A stretch of DNA of 64,000 bases from an uncultured Prevotellaceae bacterium. GTDB lineage: Bacteria > Bacteroidota > Bacteroidia > Bacteroidales > Bacteroidaceae. The notes beneath the pieces are model-generated. The model ran no database searches, was not told the origin of the DNA, and saw only the letters and a program-made list of their open reading frames with translations. Shown here one piece after another: positions 6,297 to 51,025 of the stretch. Made by a program: the position numbers and the translations under genes. Numbering within the stretch: position 1 is the stretch's first letter; each line of letters starts with the position of its first letter. The stretch lies in NCBI GenBank assembly GCA_900318995.1, contig ONMR01000008.1, forward strand, positions 1 through 64,000, written 5' to 3'.

Positions 6297-8330
6297 ATGA
6301 TAGACCAGTTGACCATAGAGAAGATACTTGATGCCGCCAACATTGTGGATGTGGTATCGGAATTCGTCACCCTGCGCCGGCGCGGAGTGAACTATGTGGG
6401 ACTCTGCCCGTTCCATAACGAGAAAACGCCTTCTTTCTACGTCTCACCATCCAAGGGGATATGCAAATGTTTCAGCTGCGGCAAGGGCGGCAACGTGATA
6501 CATTTCCTTATGGAGCACGAGCAGATGTCGTACTGGGATGCCGCAAAGTGGCTGGCCCGCAAATACGGGATTCCCTACAGCGAGCGCGAGCTGACAGACT
6601 CGGAGAAGGCGCTGCAGAACGAGCGCGAGTCATTGTTCATAACCAATCAGTTTGCGCTGGATTTCTTTAAGGACGCTCTGCTTAACACGGAGAAGGGCCG
6701 CGCCATAGGTCTGGCCTATTTCCGCAAGCGTGGATTCCGAGATGACATACTGGAAAAGTTCCATCTGGGTTACTGTCCCGATGAGCCCGATGCGCTGGCA
6801 CGTGCCGCGCTGGCCAAAGGTTACTCCAAGGAGAACCTCATCAAGACCGGCCTGTGCTATGAACGCGAGAATGACCATCAGCTGCGTGACCGTTTCCACG
6901 GCCGCGTGATATTCCCCGTCCACTCCATTTCGGGCAAGGTGGTTGCATTCGGTGGCCGCATAATGAACTCCGATGCCAAGGTGGCCAAGTACGTAAACTC
7001 GCCTGAGAGCGTGATATACTCCAAGAGCCGTGAGCTATACGGACTCTGGCAGGCCAAGCAGGCCATAGTACGCAAAGACCGCTGTTTCCTGGTCGAAGGT
7101 TACGCCGATGTGATCAGTATGTTCCAGTCGGGAGTTGAAAACGTGGTGGCATCAAGCGGCACCTCGCTCACCCCAGGTCAGATACGCCTTATCCACCGTT
7201 TCACCAACAACATCACCGTGCTCTATGACGGAGATAAGGCCGGTATAAAAGCCTCCCTGCGAGGTATAGACATGCTTCTGGCAGAGGGTATGAACGTAAA
7301 GGTGCTCCTGCTGCCCGACGGCGAGGACCCCGACAGCTTTGCCCAGGGACGCGGCGCCACCGCATTCCAGCAGTACATTGATACACACCAGGTGGATTTC
7401 ATCAAGTTCAAGGTCAACTTGCTTATGGAGGACGCCCAGGACGATCCGTACAGCCGCAGTGAACTTATCAAAAGCATAACGCAGAGCATATCGGTCATAC
7501 AGGATCCCATTGTGCGCTCCGTATACATAACGGAGTGCAGCCAGATTATGAAGATTGACGAGCGTCTGCTCATAAACGACGTTAACCGACGCCAGCGTGA
7601 GCAGACACAGGCAACCGCACAGCCCAGACAGCAGCAGGATACTCCCGAAACCGACCTGAAGTCACAAGAGCCAGACACGCCGGAGCAAACCGTATCAACC
7701 GATGAAAAGGCCACTCAGCCTCTGTTGTCGCCCGAGGACAAGCTGCGTCAGGATATCAGGGCACTCAAGCGTGAAGGCTTAGGCCCCATGATGGATAAGG
7801 AGCGTCTGTTGTCACAACTGATCGTAAGATACGGAGGCAAGGTAATGTGCACCTTCCAGAATGAGGAGGGACAGGAGCAGGATATGACCGTAGGGCAGTT
7901 CATAGTGGGCTCACTGCAGAATGACGGAATTGAATTCCGCCATCCGGTATACAAGCGTTTTGTGGAACTGATGGCCGAACATCTGGACGGGAAGGATTTC
8001 AACACGGAGAAGTTTTTCATGTCTCACCCGGAGACATTCGTAAGCCTGACTGCCGCCAGCCTGATGGAGGAGCGCTACCAGCTGAGCAAACTCTTCAAGG
8101 ACAATATGCCCACCGATGACGAGGCCCACCTGCTTAAACTTACCCGCCACATTATGGCCGATTACCAGATGGAGGTGGTTCGCCTGGAAATAAAGAAAAC
8201 AGAAAAAGAGATCCAGGAGGCCTCATCGGGAGCGGGCACTCTCGCATCTCTTCAAACCCATTACCAGCAACTACTCCAAGCCCGCTCCGAACTCTCCAAG
8301 ATACTGGGAGACCGCGTCATCACGTTATGA
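6297..8330 (+). CDS. dnaG: DNA primase DnaG
   Basis: A 677-residue replicative primase. The N-terminal CHC2 zinc finger is C37-x2-H40 ... C58-x2-C61 (LCPFHNEKTPSFYVSP, CFSCGKGGN). The TOPRIM core has EGYADV near residue 266 and VLYDGDKAG near 308. A polar low-complexity linker rich in Gln, Thr and Pro (about residues 435-485) joins it to the C-terminal helicase-interaction region. The stop codon TGA is the first part of a large palindromic repeat (8329-8415). Confidence 0.97.
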   Translation: MIDQLTIEKILDAANIVDVVSEFVTLRRRGVNYVGLCPFHNEKTPSFYVSPSKGICKCFSCGKGGNVIHFLMEHEQMSYWDAAKWLARKYGIPYSERELTDSEKALQNERESLFITNQFALDFFKDALLNTEKGRAIGLAYFRKRGFRDDILEKFHLGYCPDEPDALARAALAKGYSKENLIKTGLCYERENDHQLRDRFHGRVIFPVHSISGKVVAFGGRIMNSDAKVAKYVNSPESVIYSKSRELYGLWQAKQAIVRKDRCFLVEGYADVISMFQSGVENVVASSGTSLTPGQIRLIHRFTNNITVLYDGDKAGIKASLRGIDMLLAEGMNVKVLLLPDGEDPDSFAQGRGATAFQQYIDTHQVDFIKFKVNLLMEDAQDDPYSRSELIKSITQSISVIQDPIVRSVYITECSQIMKIDERLLINDVNRRQREQTQATAQPRQQQDTPETDLKSQEPDTPEQTVSTDEKATQPLLSPEDKLRQDIRALKREGLGPMMDKERLLSQLIVRYGGKVMCTFQNEEGQEQDMTVGQFIVGSLQNDGIEFRHPVYKRFVELMAEHLDGKDFNTEKFFMSHPETFVSLTAASLMEERYQLSKLFKDNMPTDDEAHLLKLTRHIMADYQMEVVRLEIKKTEKEIQEASSGAGTLASLQTHYQQLLQARSELSKILGDRVITL

Positions 8331-8415
8331 AAATGATACAATTGGGGACAGACCCCTTTTGTACCATTCTCACAAAATAGCACAAAAGGGGTCTGTCCCC
8401 AATTGTATCATTTTC
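8329..8415. repeat. Palindromic GGGGTC-family repeat, copy 1
   Basis: Two perfect 34-bp arms (8329-8362 and 8382-8415) surround a 19-bp loop. Each arm reads GAAAATGATACAATTGGGG then ACAGACCCCTTTTGT. The left arm overlaps the dnaG stop and the right arm contains the folE stop. The hairpin could act as a bidirectional terminator for these convergent genes. Related copies are at 26510, 54485 and 54584. Confidence 0.9.
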
Positions 8416-19180: not shown

Positions 19181-19459
19181 GGGGAACAGAAGGGGATATA
19201 GTCTCTGAAACTACTCGCCACCGAACTGTCTGTTTGGGGAGACGACGTTCCGTGGCTACTCCGACCCCCTCCAGACCCTAAACGTCGAACTCGTCCTCAT
19301 AGTCCCCTACGGGGCCTAACGTTCCTCAAACATGCGCCGTTCTTAACGGGATCTTCCAGGGGTCTACGCTTAACGCCACTGCACTGACGCTCCCCAAACA
19401 GACAGTCCGGTTGGCTACTGCAAATAGCAAGTTTCTGAGACTATATACCCCGGTCCCGT
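19181..19459 (-). repeat. Structured repeat element, copy A (about 280 bp)
   Basis: This fills the gap between nadK and argD. Read on the minus strand it aligns over most of its length with 50751-51025: GGGGTATA-type ends, a core containing CCCGTTAAGAACGGCGCATG, GCCCCGTAGGGG and GAGTTCGACGTTTAGGGTC, and a GTAGTTTCAGA near the far end. A 21-bp internal stem pairs 19221-19241 with 19390-19410 (one G:U). No ORF is apparent. Ends are less perfect than in copy B. Confidence 0.85.
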
Positions 19460-19463
19460 TTGA

Positions 19464-20588
19464 TTAATTTATAATCTTGGAATAGGATTCAAGGAAGCGG
19501 TCGGCATCCTGTTTGGTGATGCAGAGGGGCGGGAGGAGGCGGATTACGTTGGTTCCGCTTACTCCGGTGAATATGTGCTCCTCCATGAGCAGGCGCTGAC
19601 GGATCTCCTTGATGGGCTGGTCAAACTCCATTCCTATCATGAGGCCTCGGCCGCGTACCTCCTTGGGTCCGGGAATCTGCTTGAGCTGCTCCAGCAGGTA
19701 AGAGCCTACTGTGGCCGCATTCTCTACCAGATGCTCGCTCTCCATCACATCGAGCACGGCGTTTGCGGCGGCGCATGCCAAATGGTTGCCGCCGAATGTG
19801 GTACCCAGTTGGCCGATGACGGGCTGGAACATTGGGCTGATGAGCAGACCTCCGCAGGGCAGGCCGTTGGCTATACCCTTGGCTACGGTGATAAGGTCCG
19901 GCTTGATGCCGTTGTACTGGTGGGCAAAGAACCTGCCGCTGCGTCCGTAACCGCTCTGGATCTCATCCAGAATCAGCACTGTGCCGTGGGCAGTGCAGGC
20001 CTCGCGGATTCCGTGCATATACTCATCGGTGGGAACCTGAATTCCACCTACGCCTTGTATACCTTCAATTATCAGGGCAGCCACATCACCCTTGGCAAGC
20101 TCGGCCTTTGCAGCCTCCAGGTCTCCCCAAGGCAGATAGGTCACATGACCGCATGCGTTGATGGGAGCTATGATCTTGGGGTTATCGGTCACCTCGACAG
20201 CCAATGAAGTACGGCCGTGGAATGCTTTCTTAAGGGAGAGCACGCGGCTTCGGCCGGTATGGAACGATGCCAGCTTGAGAGCATTCTCATTGGCCTCGGC
20301 TCCGCTGTTGATCATGAAGAAACTGTAATCCTCATAACCGCAGACGCGGCCCAGATGCTCTGCAAACTGCTCCTGCAGACGGTTTATCACGGAATTTGAA
20401 TAGAAGCCCAGAGTAGCCACCTGACGGCTCACGGCCTCCACGTAATGCGGATGTGCGTGGCCGATGCTTATAACTGCGTGACCACCGTAAAGGTCCAGGT
20501 ACTCCTGGCCGTTCTCATCCCACACTTTCTGTCCCTGTCCCTTTACGATATTGACCGGGAACAGGCTATATACTGGAAATAATTTCAT
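19464..20588 (-). CDS. argD: Acetylornithine (or succinylornithine) aminotransferase
   Basis: 374 residues, class III PLP aminotransferase. It shows SGAEANENALKLA, the PLP-binding ILDEIQSGYGRSGRF and the lysine in LITVAKGIANGLPCGG. It makes N-acylglutamate semialdehyde into N-acylornithine. Last gene of the argR-GNAT-argG-pspC-argC-argD set. Bacteroides fragilis uses N-succinyl rather than N-acetyl intermediates, so the acyl group here is uncertain. Confidence 0.94.
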   Translation of the reverse strand: MKLFPVYSLFPVNIVKGQGQKVWDENGQEYLDLYGGHAVISIGHAHPHYVEAVSRQVATLGFYSNSVINRLQEQFAEHLGRVCGYEDYSFFMINSGAEANENALKLASFHTGRSRVLSLKKAFHGRTSLAVEVTDNPKIIAPINACGHVTYLPWGDLEAAKAELAKGDVAALIIEGIQGVGGIQVPTDEYMHGIREACTAHGTVLILDEIQSGYGRSGRFFAHQYNGIKPDLITVAKGIANGLPCGGLLISPMFQPVIGQLGTTFGGNHLACAAANAVLDVMESEHLVENAATVGSYLLEQLKQIPGPKEVRGRGLMIGMEFDQPIKEIRQRLLMEEHIFTGVSGTNVIRLLPPLCITKQDADRFLESYSKIIN

Positions 20589-46767: not shown

Positions 46768-46830
46768 AACTTTTGGGGGTATAGGGACCTGAAAGGTCCG
46801 TAGTTTCAGCTGCCTATACCCCCAAAAGTT
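46768..46830. repeat. Short 63-bp element with the A/B-type ends
   Basis: AACTTTTGGGGGTATAGG (46768-46785) and its perfect complement (46813-46830) enclose GGACC-TGAAA-GGTCC and CGTAGTTTCAG. The GTAGTTTCAG and the ends are shared with the full-length element at 50751-51025, so this looks like a deletion derivative. It lies between divergent genes. Confidence 0.8.
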
Positions 46831-48158: not shown

Positions 48159-50744
48159 ATGAAAAATTTACTGACCATTGCCCTGTCGCTGCTGGCTGTA
48201 TCGGCCGGAGCACAGAATGAGTATGAGATTAAGGTTGAAAGCAAGCAGCCCAGCGGCATCATTGATGAGATGCTGTACGGACAGCTGTTTGAGCACATCT
48301 ACTTTAGCGCCAACAACGGTGTCTGGCAGGAGTTGATATACGGCCGCTCATTCGAGCCGGAGCAGTATCCCGGCATACCGCCGCGTGACGGCTATTTTGA
48401 CGGCTGGTACATGGATGATGACATGATACTGCACTCTCCCACACGTTACGAGCAGCCGTTGAGCATTGCCACCGTTGAGTCCGATGACTACGAAATCACC
48501 ATGGACCTTAACTGGCGCTCCTACAAGCTGGCCCGCCGTTCATGGAGCGGAGGCCTTATGGACATACGGTTTGCATTCGGTCAAAAGGCCGATGGAAGCG
48601 CATATTTTGCACGCATACACGACCCCTATTATGAGGGCCGTACATTCACTCCGGCACAGACCCAGTCACAGATAGACGCTGCCAACGAGGCCAATGCACG
48701 TGCCGCACTGCAGCAACAGAGCTCCACTGCCGATTTCTCAATCTGCGCCATGGAGGTGCGTGAGTCACAGGGATTCGGAGGCCGTCCCGGACGCCGCATG
48801 AATACGCTCTCTGCCTTGGCATCGGCCCCAGCCACAAAGGATCAGGTCAATGAGAACCAGGACTGGCACAAGCTGCGCATAAGCCGTAAGGGTGCCGATG
48901 TTACCATGTACTTTGACGACAAGGAGGTGGTAAAGTACAGCGGACTGGAGCAGACCGGTAAGAACGATTTGGTATTCTGGGTAAACTATACCGAGGCAAC
49001 ATACCGCAACATCACCGTAAAGAGCGGTGAGAAGACCGTTTTCAGCGGCACTCCCAAGGATGTGCAGATACCTGAGGTGGCTCCGGAATGGACCGCGTTC
49101 GGTGAGGGCAAGTATCGTCTTGTCAAGGACGATGCGGTGAACATGCGTTACTCACAGGAGATTACCGCCGGAAAGAAGGCTGAGGCAGGCATGGCACAGG
49201 GCCCACAGGACTTAAGTCCTTACGAGAAATATGTAGGTTCTATTTATGCTAAAGGTAAGGGTGAACTCATTGTAGGATTACGTGATTCAGAAGGAAATTT
49301 TGTGGCACGTAAGTCACTTGGCAAGGTAAGCAAAGAATGGAAGAAATATGACTTCACTCTTGTGCCTGGGTTTGGCGGACCAGGTAGTGAATCCTACAGC
49401 ATAGGCGACGGTTTAGTCAAAATGATTCATTTTAAGGGCGATTTTGCAGTTATGGTAAAAGGAGGTACAGTGCAGGTTGATATGGCCACCATGTCAACTC
49501 AGACCGGTAAGGACCTGGGCGGTTTCCGTCCCGACATTCTGCAGGCCGTAAAGGAACTGCATCCCACCTGTCTGCGCTGGCCGGGCGGCGGTTACGTGGC
49601 CCAGTATGACTGGCAATGGGGTATCGGTCCGCAGGAGAACCGTGAGCGCTGGGCACACTGGATGTGGATGGACTATGACCAGAACTGCTTTGGTACCGAT
49701 GAATTCATACGTTTTTGCCGTGAGGTCAACACCGAGCCTGTCATAGTGGTAAGCGTCAGGTTTGAGCGTCCGGCCAATGAATACGACCAGATCCTGCAGA
49801 ACGCCGTGAACTGGGTGCGTTACTGCAACGCTCCCGCCACTGATGAGTGGGGTGCAAAGCGTGCCGCCAACGGACACCCAGAGCCCTACAACGTAAAGTA
49901 CTGGGAGATAGACAATGAGATGTGGGAGATGGGTATTGACCGATACGAGAAATGCGTGCGTGATTTCAGCACCGCCATGCGAGAGGTTGATCCGTCAATC
50001 AAGATAATTGCTTGCGGCGGATTCGGCGAGGACGAGCAGTTTATTAAGCGCAGCGGTAATTATTTTGACTATCTGAGCCTGCACCACTACGAGCAGCAGG
50101 GCGGTTATGCCACCGGTCCTGTGCGTCTGGGACAGCAATATGACCGTTACGCCCAGATGATTGCAGCCGGTCCCAATCCCAACATCAAGCTCTTTATTTC
50201 AGAGTGGAACCTTAACAGCATTGATTGGCGCACAGGCCTCTTTGCCGGCGGATTCCTGAATATGTGCGAGGCCCGTGACGTTGTTGCAATGGGTGCAGCT
50301 GCCCTCTTTATACGCCGTACCGATGCCCCCGACTGGAACAACGCATTTATAAACTTTGACTATAAGGACCTGTTCAAGGCCCCCAACTGCCAGGTTACCG
50401 AACTCTGGTATGACCATTTCAGCAAGTATCGTCTGGCTTACAGCGGTGAGACCGGCAATGTGAGCGTAAGCACCACAATGTCAGAAAACGGAGCCGATGT
50501 AATAGTAAAGGTGGTCAACCCCACCGATGAGGCCGCCACCCTGCGCATCAAGGGAGACTGGGAAGGCGTAAGCAGCACCGAGTTCGAGTACTATGCCCCC
50601 GGCTCCCTGACCGTAGCCAACAGCATGGAGAACAAGAACGCAGTAGCGCTAAAGAAAACCAGCGCTTCCACCGATGGAAACGACGTAATCCTGAGCATCC
50701 CCGCACTTTCAGCAGGCGTCCTGACCATCACCAAAGCTTACTAA
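48159..50744 (+). CDS. Secreted GH51 alpha-L-arabinofuranosidase
   Basis: 861 residues with signal peptide (MKNLLTIALSLLAVSAGA). The family opening GIIDEMLYGQLFEHIYFSANNGVWQ is followed by an inserted carbohydrate-binding/jelly-roll region (about residues 80-440), then the barrel: CLRWPGGGYVAQYDW, acid/base YWEIDNEMWEMG (Glu near 586), nucleophile FISEWNLNS (Glu near 682). A GFGGRPGRR insert lies at about residue 205. Codons between about 49204 and 49465 are visibly AT-richer than the rest. Cleaves arabinose side chains of arabinoxylan or arabinan. Confidence 0.94.
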   Translation: MKNLLTIALSLLAVSAGAQNEYEIKVESKQPSGIIDEMLYGQLFEHIYFSANNGVWQELIYGRSFEPEQYPGIPPRDGYFDGWYMDDDMILHSPTRYEQPLSIATVESDDYEITMDLNWRSYKLARRSWSGGLMDIRFAFGQKADGSAYFARIHDPYYEGRTFTPAQTQSQIDAANEANARAALQQQSSTADFSICAMEVRESQGFGGRPGRRMNTLSALASAPATKDQVNENQDWHKLRISRKGADVTMYFDDKEVVKYSGLEQTGKNDLVFWVNYTEATYRNITVKSGEKTVFSGTPKDVQIPEVAPEWTAFGEGKYRLVKDDAVNMRYSQEITAGKKAEAGMAQGPQDLSPYEKYVGSIYAKGKGELIVGLRDSEGNFVARKSLGKVSKEWKKYDFTLVPGFGGPGSESYSIGDGLVKMIHFKGDFAVMVKGGTVQVDMATMSTQTGKDLGGFRPDILQAVKELHPTCLRWPGGGYVAQYDWQWGIGPQENRERWAHWMWMDYDQNCFGTDEFIRFCREVNTEPVIVVSVRFERPANEYDQILQNAVNWVRYCNAPATDEWGAKRAANGHPEPYNVKYWEIDNEMWEMGIDRYEKCVRDFSTAMREVDPSIKIIACGGFGEDEQFIKRSGNYFDYLSLHHYEQQGGYATGPVRLGQQYDRYAQMIAAGPNPNIKLFISEWNLNSIDWRTGLFAGGFLNMCEARDVVAMGAAALFIRRTDAPDWNNAFINFDYKDLFKAPNCQVTELWYDHFSKYRLAYSGETGNVSVSTTMSENGADVIVKVVNPTDEAATLRIKGDWEGVSSTEFEYYAPGSLTVANSMENKNAVALKKTSASTDGNDVILSIPALSAGVLTITKAY

Positions 50745-50750
50745 GCGAGC

Positions 50751-51025
50751 GAACTTTTTGGGGTATAGGTATCAGAAAACCTGCAACTTGTTGCAGCAGC
50801 CGAACCTTAGGTTTGACGAGCATTGGCGGAGGGCGTAAGCGGAGAGCCCACGGAGGATCCCGTTAAGAACGGCGCATGTCTGACGAACGTTAGACCCCGT
50901 AGGGGGCTATAAGGAGGAGTTCGACGTTTAGGGTCCGTAGGGGCTCGTAGTAGCCCGGAGCCGTTGTCTCGTCAAACCTAAGGTTCGGCGTGCGTAGTTT
51001 CAGATATCTATACCCCAAAAAGTTC
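50751..51025 (+). repeat. Structured repeat element, copy B (275 bp)
   Basis: Perfect 18-bp terminal inverted repeats GAACTTTTTGGGGTATAG (50751-50768; complement 51008-51025). Inside: hairpin CTGCAACTTGTTGCAG (50781-50796); a perfect 20-bp stem 50801-50820 with 50968-50987; and the core shared with copy A (CCGTTAAGAACGG hairpin, CCCCGTAGGGG, GAGTTCGACGTTTAGGGTC). No ORF. It fills the convergent GH51/dusB gap. Confidence 0.9.

Follow-up and report, generated by a model that had tools for sequence, protein, structure and literature searches.

Large structured RNAs tied to dispersed elements include the HEARO/OMEGA RNAs, the bridge RNA of IS110 and group II introns. Two described families of repeats come closer to the one reported here. 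REP and REPIN palindromes (RAYT/Y1) are likewise short repeats between genes that may be mobilised in trans, and an excerpt of PMC3733652 notes G-T pairing in their stems. The Flavo-1 RNA motif (RF01705) is likewise structured, found in Bacteroidota and present in tens of dispersed copies, with up to 34 Flavo-1 matches per genome; the available parts of two sources catalogue it for Bacteroidetes (PMC2864571) and place it sense or antisense to transcripts, without a clear role (PMC9723704). Here, we analyse a 64,000-nucleotide stretch of DNA from an uncultured Prevotellaceae bacterium (contig ONMR01000008.1, hereafter the window) in which two stretches are copies of a dispersed repeat family of about 200 nt, whose predicted fold is kept while its letters change.

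Matches were scored with two covariance models: R1, built from 17 copies, and R2, a wider model including distant forms. At E values up to 10, R2 finds copy 1 and copy 2 in the window and nothing further. Copy 2 lies on the minus strand, opposite to copy 1, a point that an earlier note on this DNA had left implicit. Their parts are as follows.

50796 to 50991, plus strand: copy 1 of the structured element, a full-length model match (cmsearch, R2 193.1 bits, R1 186.9 bits).
50800 to 50820, plus strand: 5' arm of the long stem P1 in copy 1 (stem recomputation; inverted repeat 50799-50820/50968-50989, 22 nt, 100%).
50968 to 50988, plus strand: 3' arm of P1 in copy 1 (inverted repeat, stem recomputation).
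50890 to 50910, plus strand: apical hairpin of copy 1, TTAG-A-CCCC-GTA-GGGG-G-CTAT, by sequence, with the A·G mismatch at 50894·50906 (alignment columns 103:116, see below).
19218 to 19414, minus strand: copy 2 of the structured element (cmsearch, R2 206.8 bits, R1 211 bits).
19390 to 19410, minus strand: 5' arm of P1 in copy 2 (stem recomputation).
19221 to 19241, minus strand: 3' arm of P1 in copy 2 (stem recomputation).
19300 to 19319, minus strand: apical hairpin of copy 2, by sequence, where G·A (19315·19303) replaces the A·G of copy 1.

The earlier note had counted seven differences between the two long stems, six of them compensated and one giving G:U, and recomputation over 21 base pairs returns exactly this: 7 of 21 pairs differ, with six compensatory changes, one G:U and no broken pair (from copy 1 to copy 2, A:T to G:T, C:G to T:A, T:A to G:C, A:T to C:G, G:C to T:A, A:T to G:C and C:G to G:C). 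Folded with their flanks, the two copies reach energies below those of dinucleotide shuffles (z −7.67 and −8.80; in neither case did any of 200 shuffles do as well). The opposite strands also fold well, because palindromes must, if less strongly (z −7.17 with flanks); without flanks, copy 2 stands at z −6.11 and its opposite strand at −5.22.

To describe the fold, 42 copies from the genus were aligned by sequence only (alignment A5), from which RNAalifold derived 64 pairs. A5 takes 42 of the 53 rows of alignment A3, leaving out L017 and L019, the distant forms L129-L133, and L030, L032, L146 and L147, which are the same as or close to rows that were kept; the interrupted or partial copies L017, L019 and L024 are excluded from A1, A2 and A5 alike. 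L017 and L019 are interrupted by another repeat, TTTTGCGTAGCAAAATAAAACAAGGCTGGGCTACGCG. The fold predicted for one strand is a long rod, composed of the outer stem P1, short helices and an apical domain, the last modelled as a tandem-purine step followed by a small hairpin. Conserved asymmetric internal loops lie between the short helices (GCGTTAAGCGnAG opposite GGAGTAGC; GTTAAG opposite TA). P1 is hypervariable yet paired, with a mean pairwise identity of 66% compared with 81% for the core.

Covariation was assessed with our own simplified R-scape-like script, which applies a G-test with average-product correction and a FastTree tree, against a null of 60 simulated alignments in which each column retains its parsimony count of changes. 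At E ≤ 0.05, 14 of 18,721 column pairs covary, 13 of them exceeding every null value and the last standing at E 0.05. Thirteen of the 14 sit in predicted helices, helices and covariation both being derived from the same alignment, and the remaining one is a non-canonical mismatch (columns 103:116) that reads G·A in 22 copies, A·G in 19 and a gap in one. Standard pairs occupy 96.7% of 2,676 cells, as opposed to 81.8% when partners are shuffled and 37–48% when they are slid by one to three columns, and double changes affect 42 of the 64 pairs (352 cells, versus 97 in shuffles). These results support a constraint on the fold. The earlier note had ascribed the matched changes to selection on RNA or hairpin-DNA structure and had named uncompensated stem changes in further copies as the observation that would count against it; over the 42 copies 88 of the 2,676 cells are not standard pairs, and the covarying pairs sustain its claim, with the caveat of template switching in P1 that is taken up below.

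The genome that contains the window (G000; 2.5 Mb, 42 contigs, 87% complete) holds 20 copies according to R1, and a DNA search of it gave 25 matches, sorted by reading into 20 whole or partial copies and five arm matches. R1 matches at least 27 of the 37 genus genomes and at least 1 of 64 others (at least 28 of 101 in all), with at least 24 copies in the richest genome of the genus. With R2, matches were found in at least 13 of 393 sampled Bacteroidales genomes, G000 included, and phylum-wide in at least 3 of 395 genomes, which adds one genome, G753, to the Bacteroidales result; G000 and G041, two of the genomes from which R2 was built, are part of both counts. The genome counts are lower bounds, as filters were strict and no more than 24 (R1) or six (R2) candidates per genome were scored, and the weakest Bacteroidales matches to R2 (for example G343, E 4.6e-4) are assigned by score and not by reading. 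The genus carrying the repeat is known mainly from rumens; the closest homologues of one window gene come from metagenome-assembled genomes, many of them from rumen, reticulum and omasum and others from reindeer and horse faeces, and the RUG genome series is one that we take to be from rumen.

Distant forms in other genera retain, by reading, a recognisable core in which GCGTTAA(A/G) faces TTTTAGC. Their apex reads TGTYTGA(C/G)...(G/C)GAGTTC or, in some cases, the shorter GTCTGAGCGNAGCGAGTT. Downstream of several of them (L188, L190, L193, L211 and L133) lie a T-rich stretch and a palindrome, TTTTTTGGTTACTTTTTTG...CAAAAAAGTAAC or TTTTCTTTTGGTTC...CAAAAGAAAA, which is perhaps the end or terminator of the element. 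One IMG/VR contig, L179, reads as a distant-type copy and scores weakly with the model (R1 16.1 bits, E 0.0089). Copy 1 has no match in plasmid and phage records, and a core-derived pattern retrieved 0 stretches from viral contigs. A short apex, GTCTGAGCGAAGCGAGTT, stands on small stems in the viral contigs L177, L180, L182 and L184, without the remainder of the element. Rfam 15 at its gathering score yields two tRNAs elsewhere in the window and no match to the repeat; at E up to 10 the copy 1 region has no match, and 13 related loci have none at E up to 1. Literature searches by sequence strings and topics found no publication on the family, although an unnamed earlier prediction is possible, for example in the human-microbiome RNA survey PMC8040213, of which an excerpt was available.

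By our own calls of open reading frames, 43 copies in the genus are intergenic. Their neighbours are both on the same strand as the copy in 12 cases and both on the opposite strand in nine; 11 copies lie between divergent genes, six between convergent genes, and five have one neighbour only. L132 (270-465), a divergent copy whose outer palindrome is long and perfect, differs from the intergenic copies in that it may sit where a reading frame starts. Across the 41 of 43 copies used for flank and promoter analysis, sequence conservation sets in about 12 nt ahead of the element and tails off within some 10 nt past its end, the flanks being almost unconserved; the unit therefore has edges.

Beyond these edges, both copies in the window lie within larger palindromes, and a similar palindrome stands elsewhere in the window.

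50751 to 50778, plus strand: left arm of an outer palindrome that has copy 1 in its loop (inverted repeat 50748-50778/50998-51028, 90% complementary).
50998 to 51025, plus strand: right arm of the outer palindrome of copy 1 (same inverted repeat).
19192 to 19212, plus strand: one arm of the outer palindrome next to copy 2 (inverted repeat 19192-19212/19430-19450, 90% complementary).
19430 to 19450, plus strand: second outer palindrome arm beside copy 2 (inverted repeat 19192-19212/19430-19450).
46768 to 46830, no strand assigned: a like outer palindrome (AACTTTTGGGGGTATAGG...) with only a short hairpin inside and without the structured element.

The last of these is a docking palindrome minus the structured element. 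By reading, arms of a GAAC...GGGG type that varies in sequence enclose 12 of 41 copies, and four further copies (L009, L106, L108 and L125) lie between the arms of another palindrome. Elsewhere in the window, positions 8329-8415 hold a palindrome of 34 bp (GAAAATGATACAATTGGGGACAGACCCCTTTTGT) whose loop has 19 bases, and loosely similar GGGGACGGTTC palindromes adjoin Y1 transposase genes of the genus (L233, L234).

Homologous places hold the element, a different interior in similar arms, or nothing. Downstream of homologues of the gene at 48159-50744, R1 finds the element in 3 of 80 loci (L030, L032 and L033). Fourteen of these loci were read: three have the element, four have another interior beside similar arms (L031, L034, L038 and L037, of which L037 had no right arm in view), and the remaining seven show traces of arms in two cases (L027, L092) and none in five; the gene that follows differs among loci. 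For homologues of the gene at 19464-20588, 30 loci were read over 420 bases downstream and L137-L155 were scanned with R1. Three carry the element (our own, L146 and L147), four carry another interior in similar arms (L137, L138, L139 and L152), and the rest have other palindromes or none. A second interior, GGGAGGGGCCCG...GGGAGGGATA or its reverse, fills similar arms at homologous places in L031, L034, L038, L137-L139 and L152, and looks like another structured element. As for terminal features, palindromic arms are present and no target duplication was recognised when places with and without the element were compared by reading.

We tentatively favour, at somewhat under an even chance, the reading that this is a non-coding dispersed repeat family, probably mobilised in trans, whose folded single strand is recognised by a putative protein. 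The repeat would spread and be exchanged as a non-autonomous mobile element that favours intergenic palindromes; a putative protein supplied in trans would recognise the folded strand, more likely RNA than single-stranded DNA (ssDNA); and copies that lose the fold would be lost or overwritten. On this proposal the fold is kept among copies because the protein recognises it and non-folding copies vanish. Both the mobilisation in trans and the recognition of a folded strand are steps that we infer.

Several results weigh against this reading. We found no transposase, target duplication or excision for the repeat, and no promoter of its own was recognised among boxes within 140 nt of the 41 copies, which is awkward for an RNA. 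In Fisher tests that treat related sequences as independent, as do our p-values for pair and box counts, none of three candidate partner genes clearly tracks the element: not Y1 transposase (in 16 of 27 element-bearing genomes and 7 of the 10 others, p 0.71), reverse transcriptase (4 of 27, our own genome included, versus 3 of 10, p 0.36) or IS110 (5 of 27 versus 0 of 10, our own genome having none, p 0.30). The palindromes at four Y1 loci are other sequences than those of the element, and no REP-like flanking was seen there. A TnpB-type gene exceeds the cut-off in 1 of 37 genus genomes, one without the element, no search having been aimed at IscB/HNH; matches at E ≤ 0.001, below the cut-off, add five more genomes, our own included.

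The same copies might instead be loci of a structured non-coding RNA, trans-acting or self-standing, that is not itself mobile but transcribed from many places and kept for a cellular function. Strong covariation with a G:U bias would be expected of such an RNA, as would 45 of the 206 alignment columns without variation among the 42 copies, beside almost unconserved flanks, and the occupation of similar places in several species. We nonetheless consider it unlikely: some 20 intergenic copies in every orientation would be odd for an important RNA, 10 of the 37 genus genomes have no match under strict filters, and hardly any promoter-like box reads into the copies. Bacteroidota promoters carry a box of the type TAnnTTTG. 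Such boxes read away from the element in 23 of 41 cases downstream and 15 of 41 upstream, and into it in 2 of 41 upstream and 2 of 41 downstream (38 versus 4 side-cases in all), an outward excess that is partly expected of any insertion outside promoters. A conserved TTTCC.TTTGCA was considered as the element's own promoter and found no support in the box analysis.

The pair statistics bear on which molecule folds. Over all pairs in the 42 copies G:U occurs 205 times and A:C 12 times; at Watson-Crick-dominant pairs the counts are 64 and 12, and in P1 35 and 7. This excess points to one folded strand, probably the plus strand as given for copy 1. As to whether it acts as RNA or DNA, the signs point both ways: two pairs that are near-invariantly G:U (41 and 39 of 42 copies) and the G·A swap favour RNA, while C(GNA)G triloops and the scarcity of inward promoter-like boxes favour DNA. 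These triloops, which form the apical loop in 32 of 42 copies, are exceptionally stable in DNA and not in RNA, and G·T is tolerated better than A·C in DNA too. An ssDNA hairpin element, comparable to IS200/IS605 ends, REP repeats or folded recombination sites, would fit both facts, as well as the position of copies inside palindromes and outside promoters and the DNA folds of copy 1, whose two strands beat shuffles at z −7.18 and −7.53. The near-invariant G:U pairs look RNA-like, however, and neither the distribution of Y1 transposase nor the palindromes at the four sampled Y1 loci agree with such an element, leaving it in our view distinctly doubtful.

A mutational origin of the matched changes would need no selection on the fold at all, template switching copying one palindrome arm onto the other. 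We compared 13 same-site pairs of copies, ten similar on both flanks, two on one flank (L005/L126 and L010/L116), and L033 with copy 1; three pairs share the trio L009/L108/L125, and L007/L118 and L119/L135 diverge immediately beyond the element and may therefore be separate nearby insertions. Counted over the whole element, doubles are matched in 117 cases and breaking in 15, and singles are tolerated in 41 and breaking in 29. P1 accounts for 68 of the matched and 7 of the breaking doubles and for 9 of the tolerated and 14 of the breaking singles, and L033 differs from copy 1 by one compensatory change and two G:U-type changes. The preponderance of matched doubles over tolerated singles in P1 is what template switching predicts, a replication process described as yielding such an excess in an excerpt of PMC8794818, and the outer arms flanking the element likewise vary in step with each other, judged by reading. 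Selection need therefore not be the sole source of the doubles in P1, where template switching probably adds matched changes. On its own it leaves the core unaccounted for: in the rest of the element doubles (49) and singles (32 tolerated, 15 breaking) are more nearly balanced, template switching should erase conserved mismatches and asymmetric internal loops, and neither the preference of G:U over A:C nor the G·A/A·G swap would follow from it. As the main source of the stem changes we hold it to be very unlikely.

Same-site copies are mutual nearest relatives in only 2 of the 13 pairs (ranks 1 to 38 of 41), which points to exchange between copies, by overwriting, or to repeated insertion. L005 and L126 have most of P1 in common and different core types, and L013 and L109 share the apical domain and not P1, suggesting that parts of the element can be exchanged separately. 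An RNA-centred selfish repeat, whose RNA of about 200 nt would itself direct or catalyse insertion into, and exchange between, intergenic palindromes as interchangeable docking sites, strikes us as improbable; were it true, one site would carry different RNA interiors in different species. A cis-regulatory leader or riboswitch, or an element with a fixed neighbour, is rejected, as orientations are mixed and neighbour proteins unrelated (a Pfam scan of 96 of 127 neighbour proteins gave 133 families, each in at most three proteins).

The repeat is a large, folded, RNA-like family without an Rfam 15 match, present in gut and rumen Bacteroidota at tens of copies to a genome. Its copies form a natural variant series on a single fold, with which template-switch mutation of palindromes could be distinguished from selection on RNA structure, and they offer a test case for the persistence and exchange of non-coding repeats without a recognised transposase.

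Set against the known systems, the repeat differs from REP/REPIN palindromes in being several times longer, in its complex conserved interior and in having no link to Y1 in the genus. Unlike HEARO/OMEGA RNAs, the IS110 bridge RNA and group II introns, its copies show no protein-coding part and have no Rfam match; a group II intron or retroelement in particular finds no support, given this lack of a match and reverse transcriptase in 4 of the 27 genomes with the element. Flavo-1 has 76 model positions and another sequence, and as a relative it is ruled out: RF01705 has 0 matches in G000 and the window, and R2 none in 13 Flavo-1 loci. The repeat nevertheless shares the Flavo-1 lifestyle, being dispersed, multi-copy and free in orientation. 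Its kind is thus already known from the lifestyle of Flavo-1, and what sets it apart is its fold, its size, its nesting in palindromes and its exchange.
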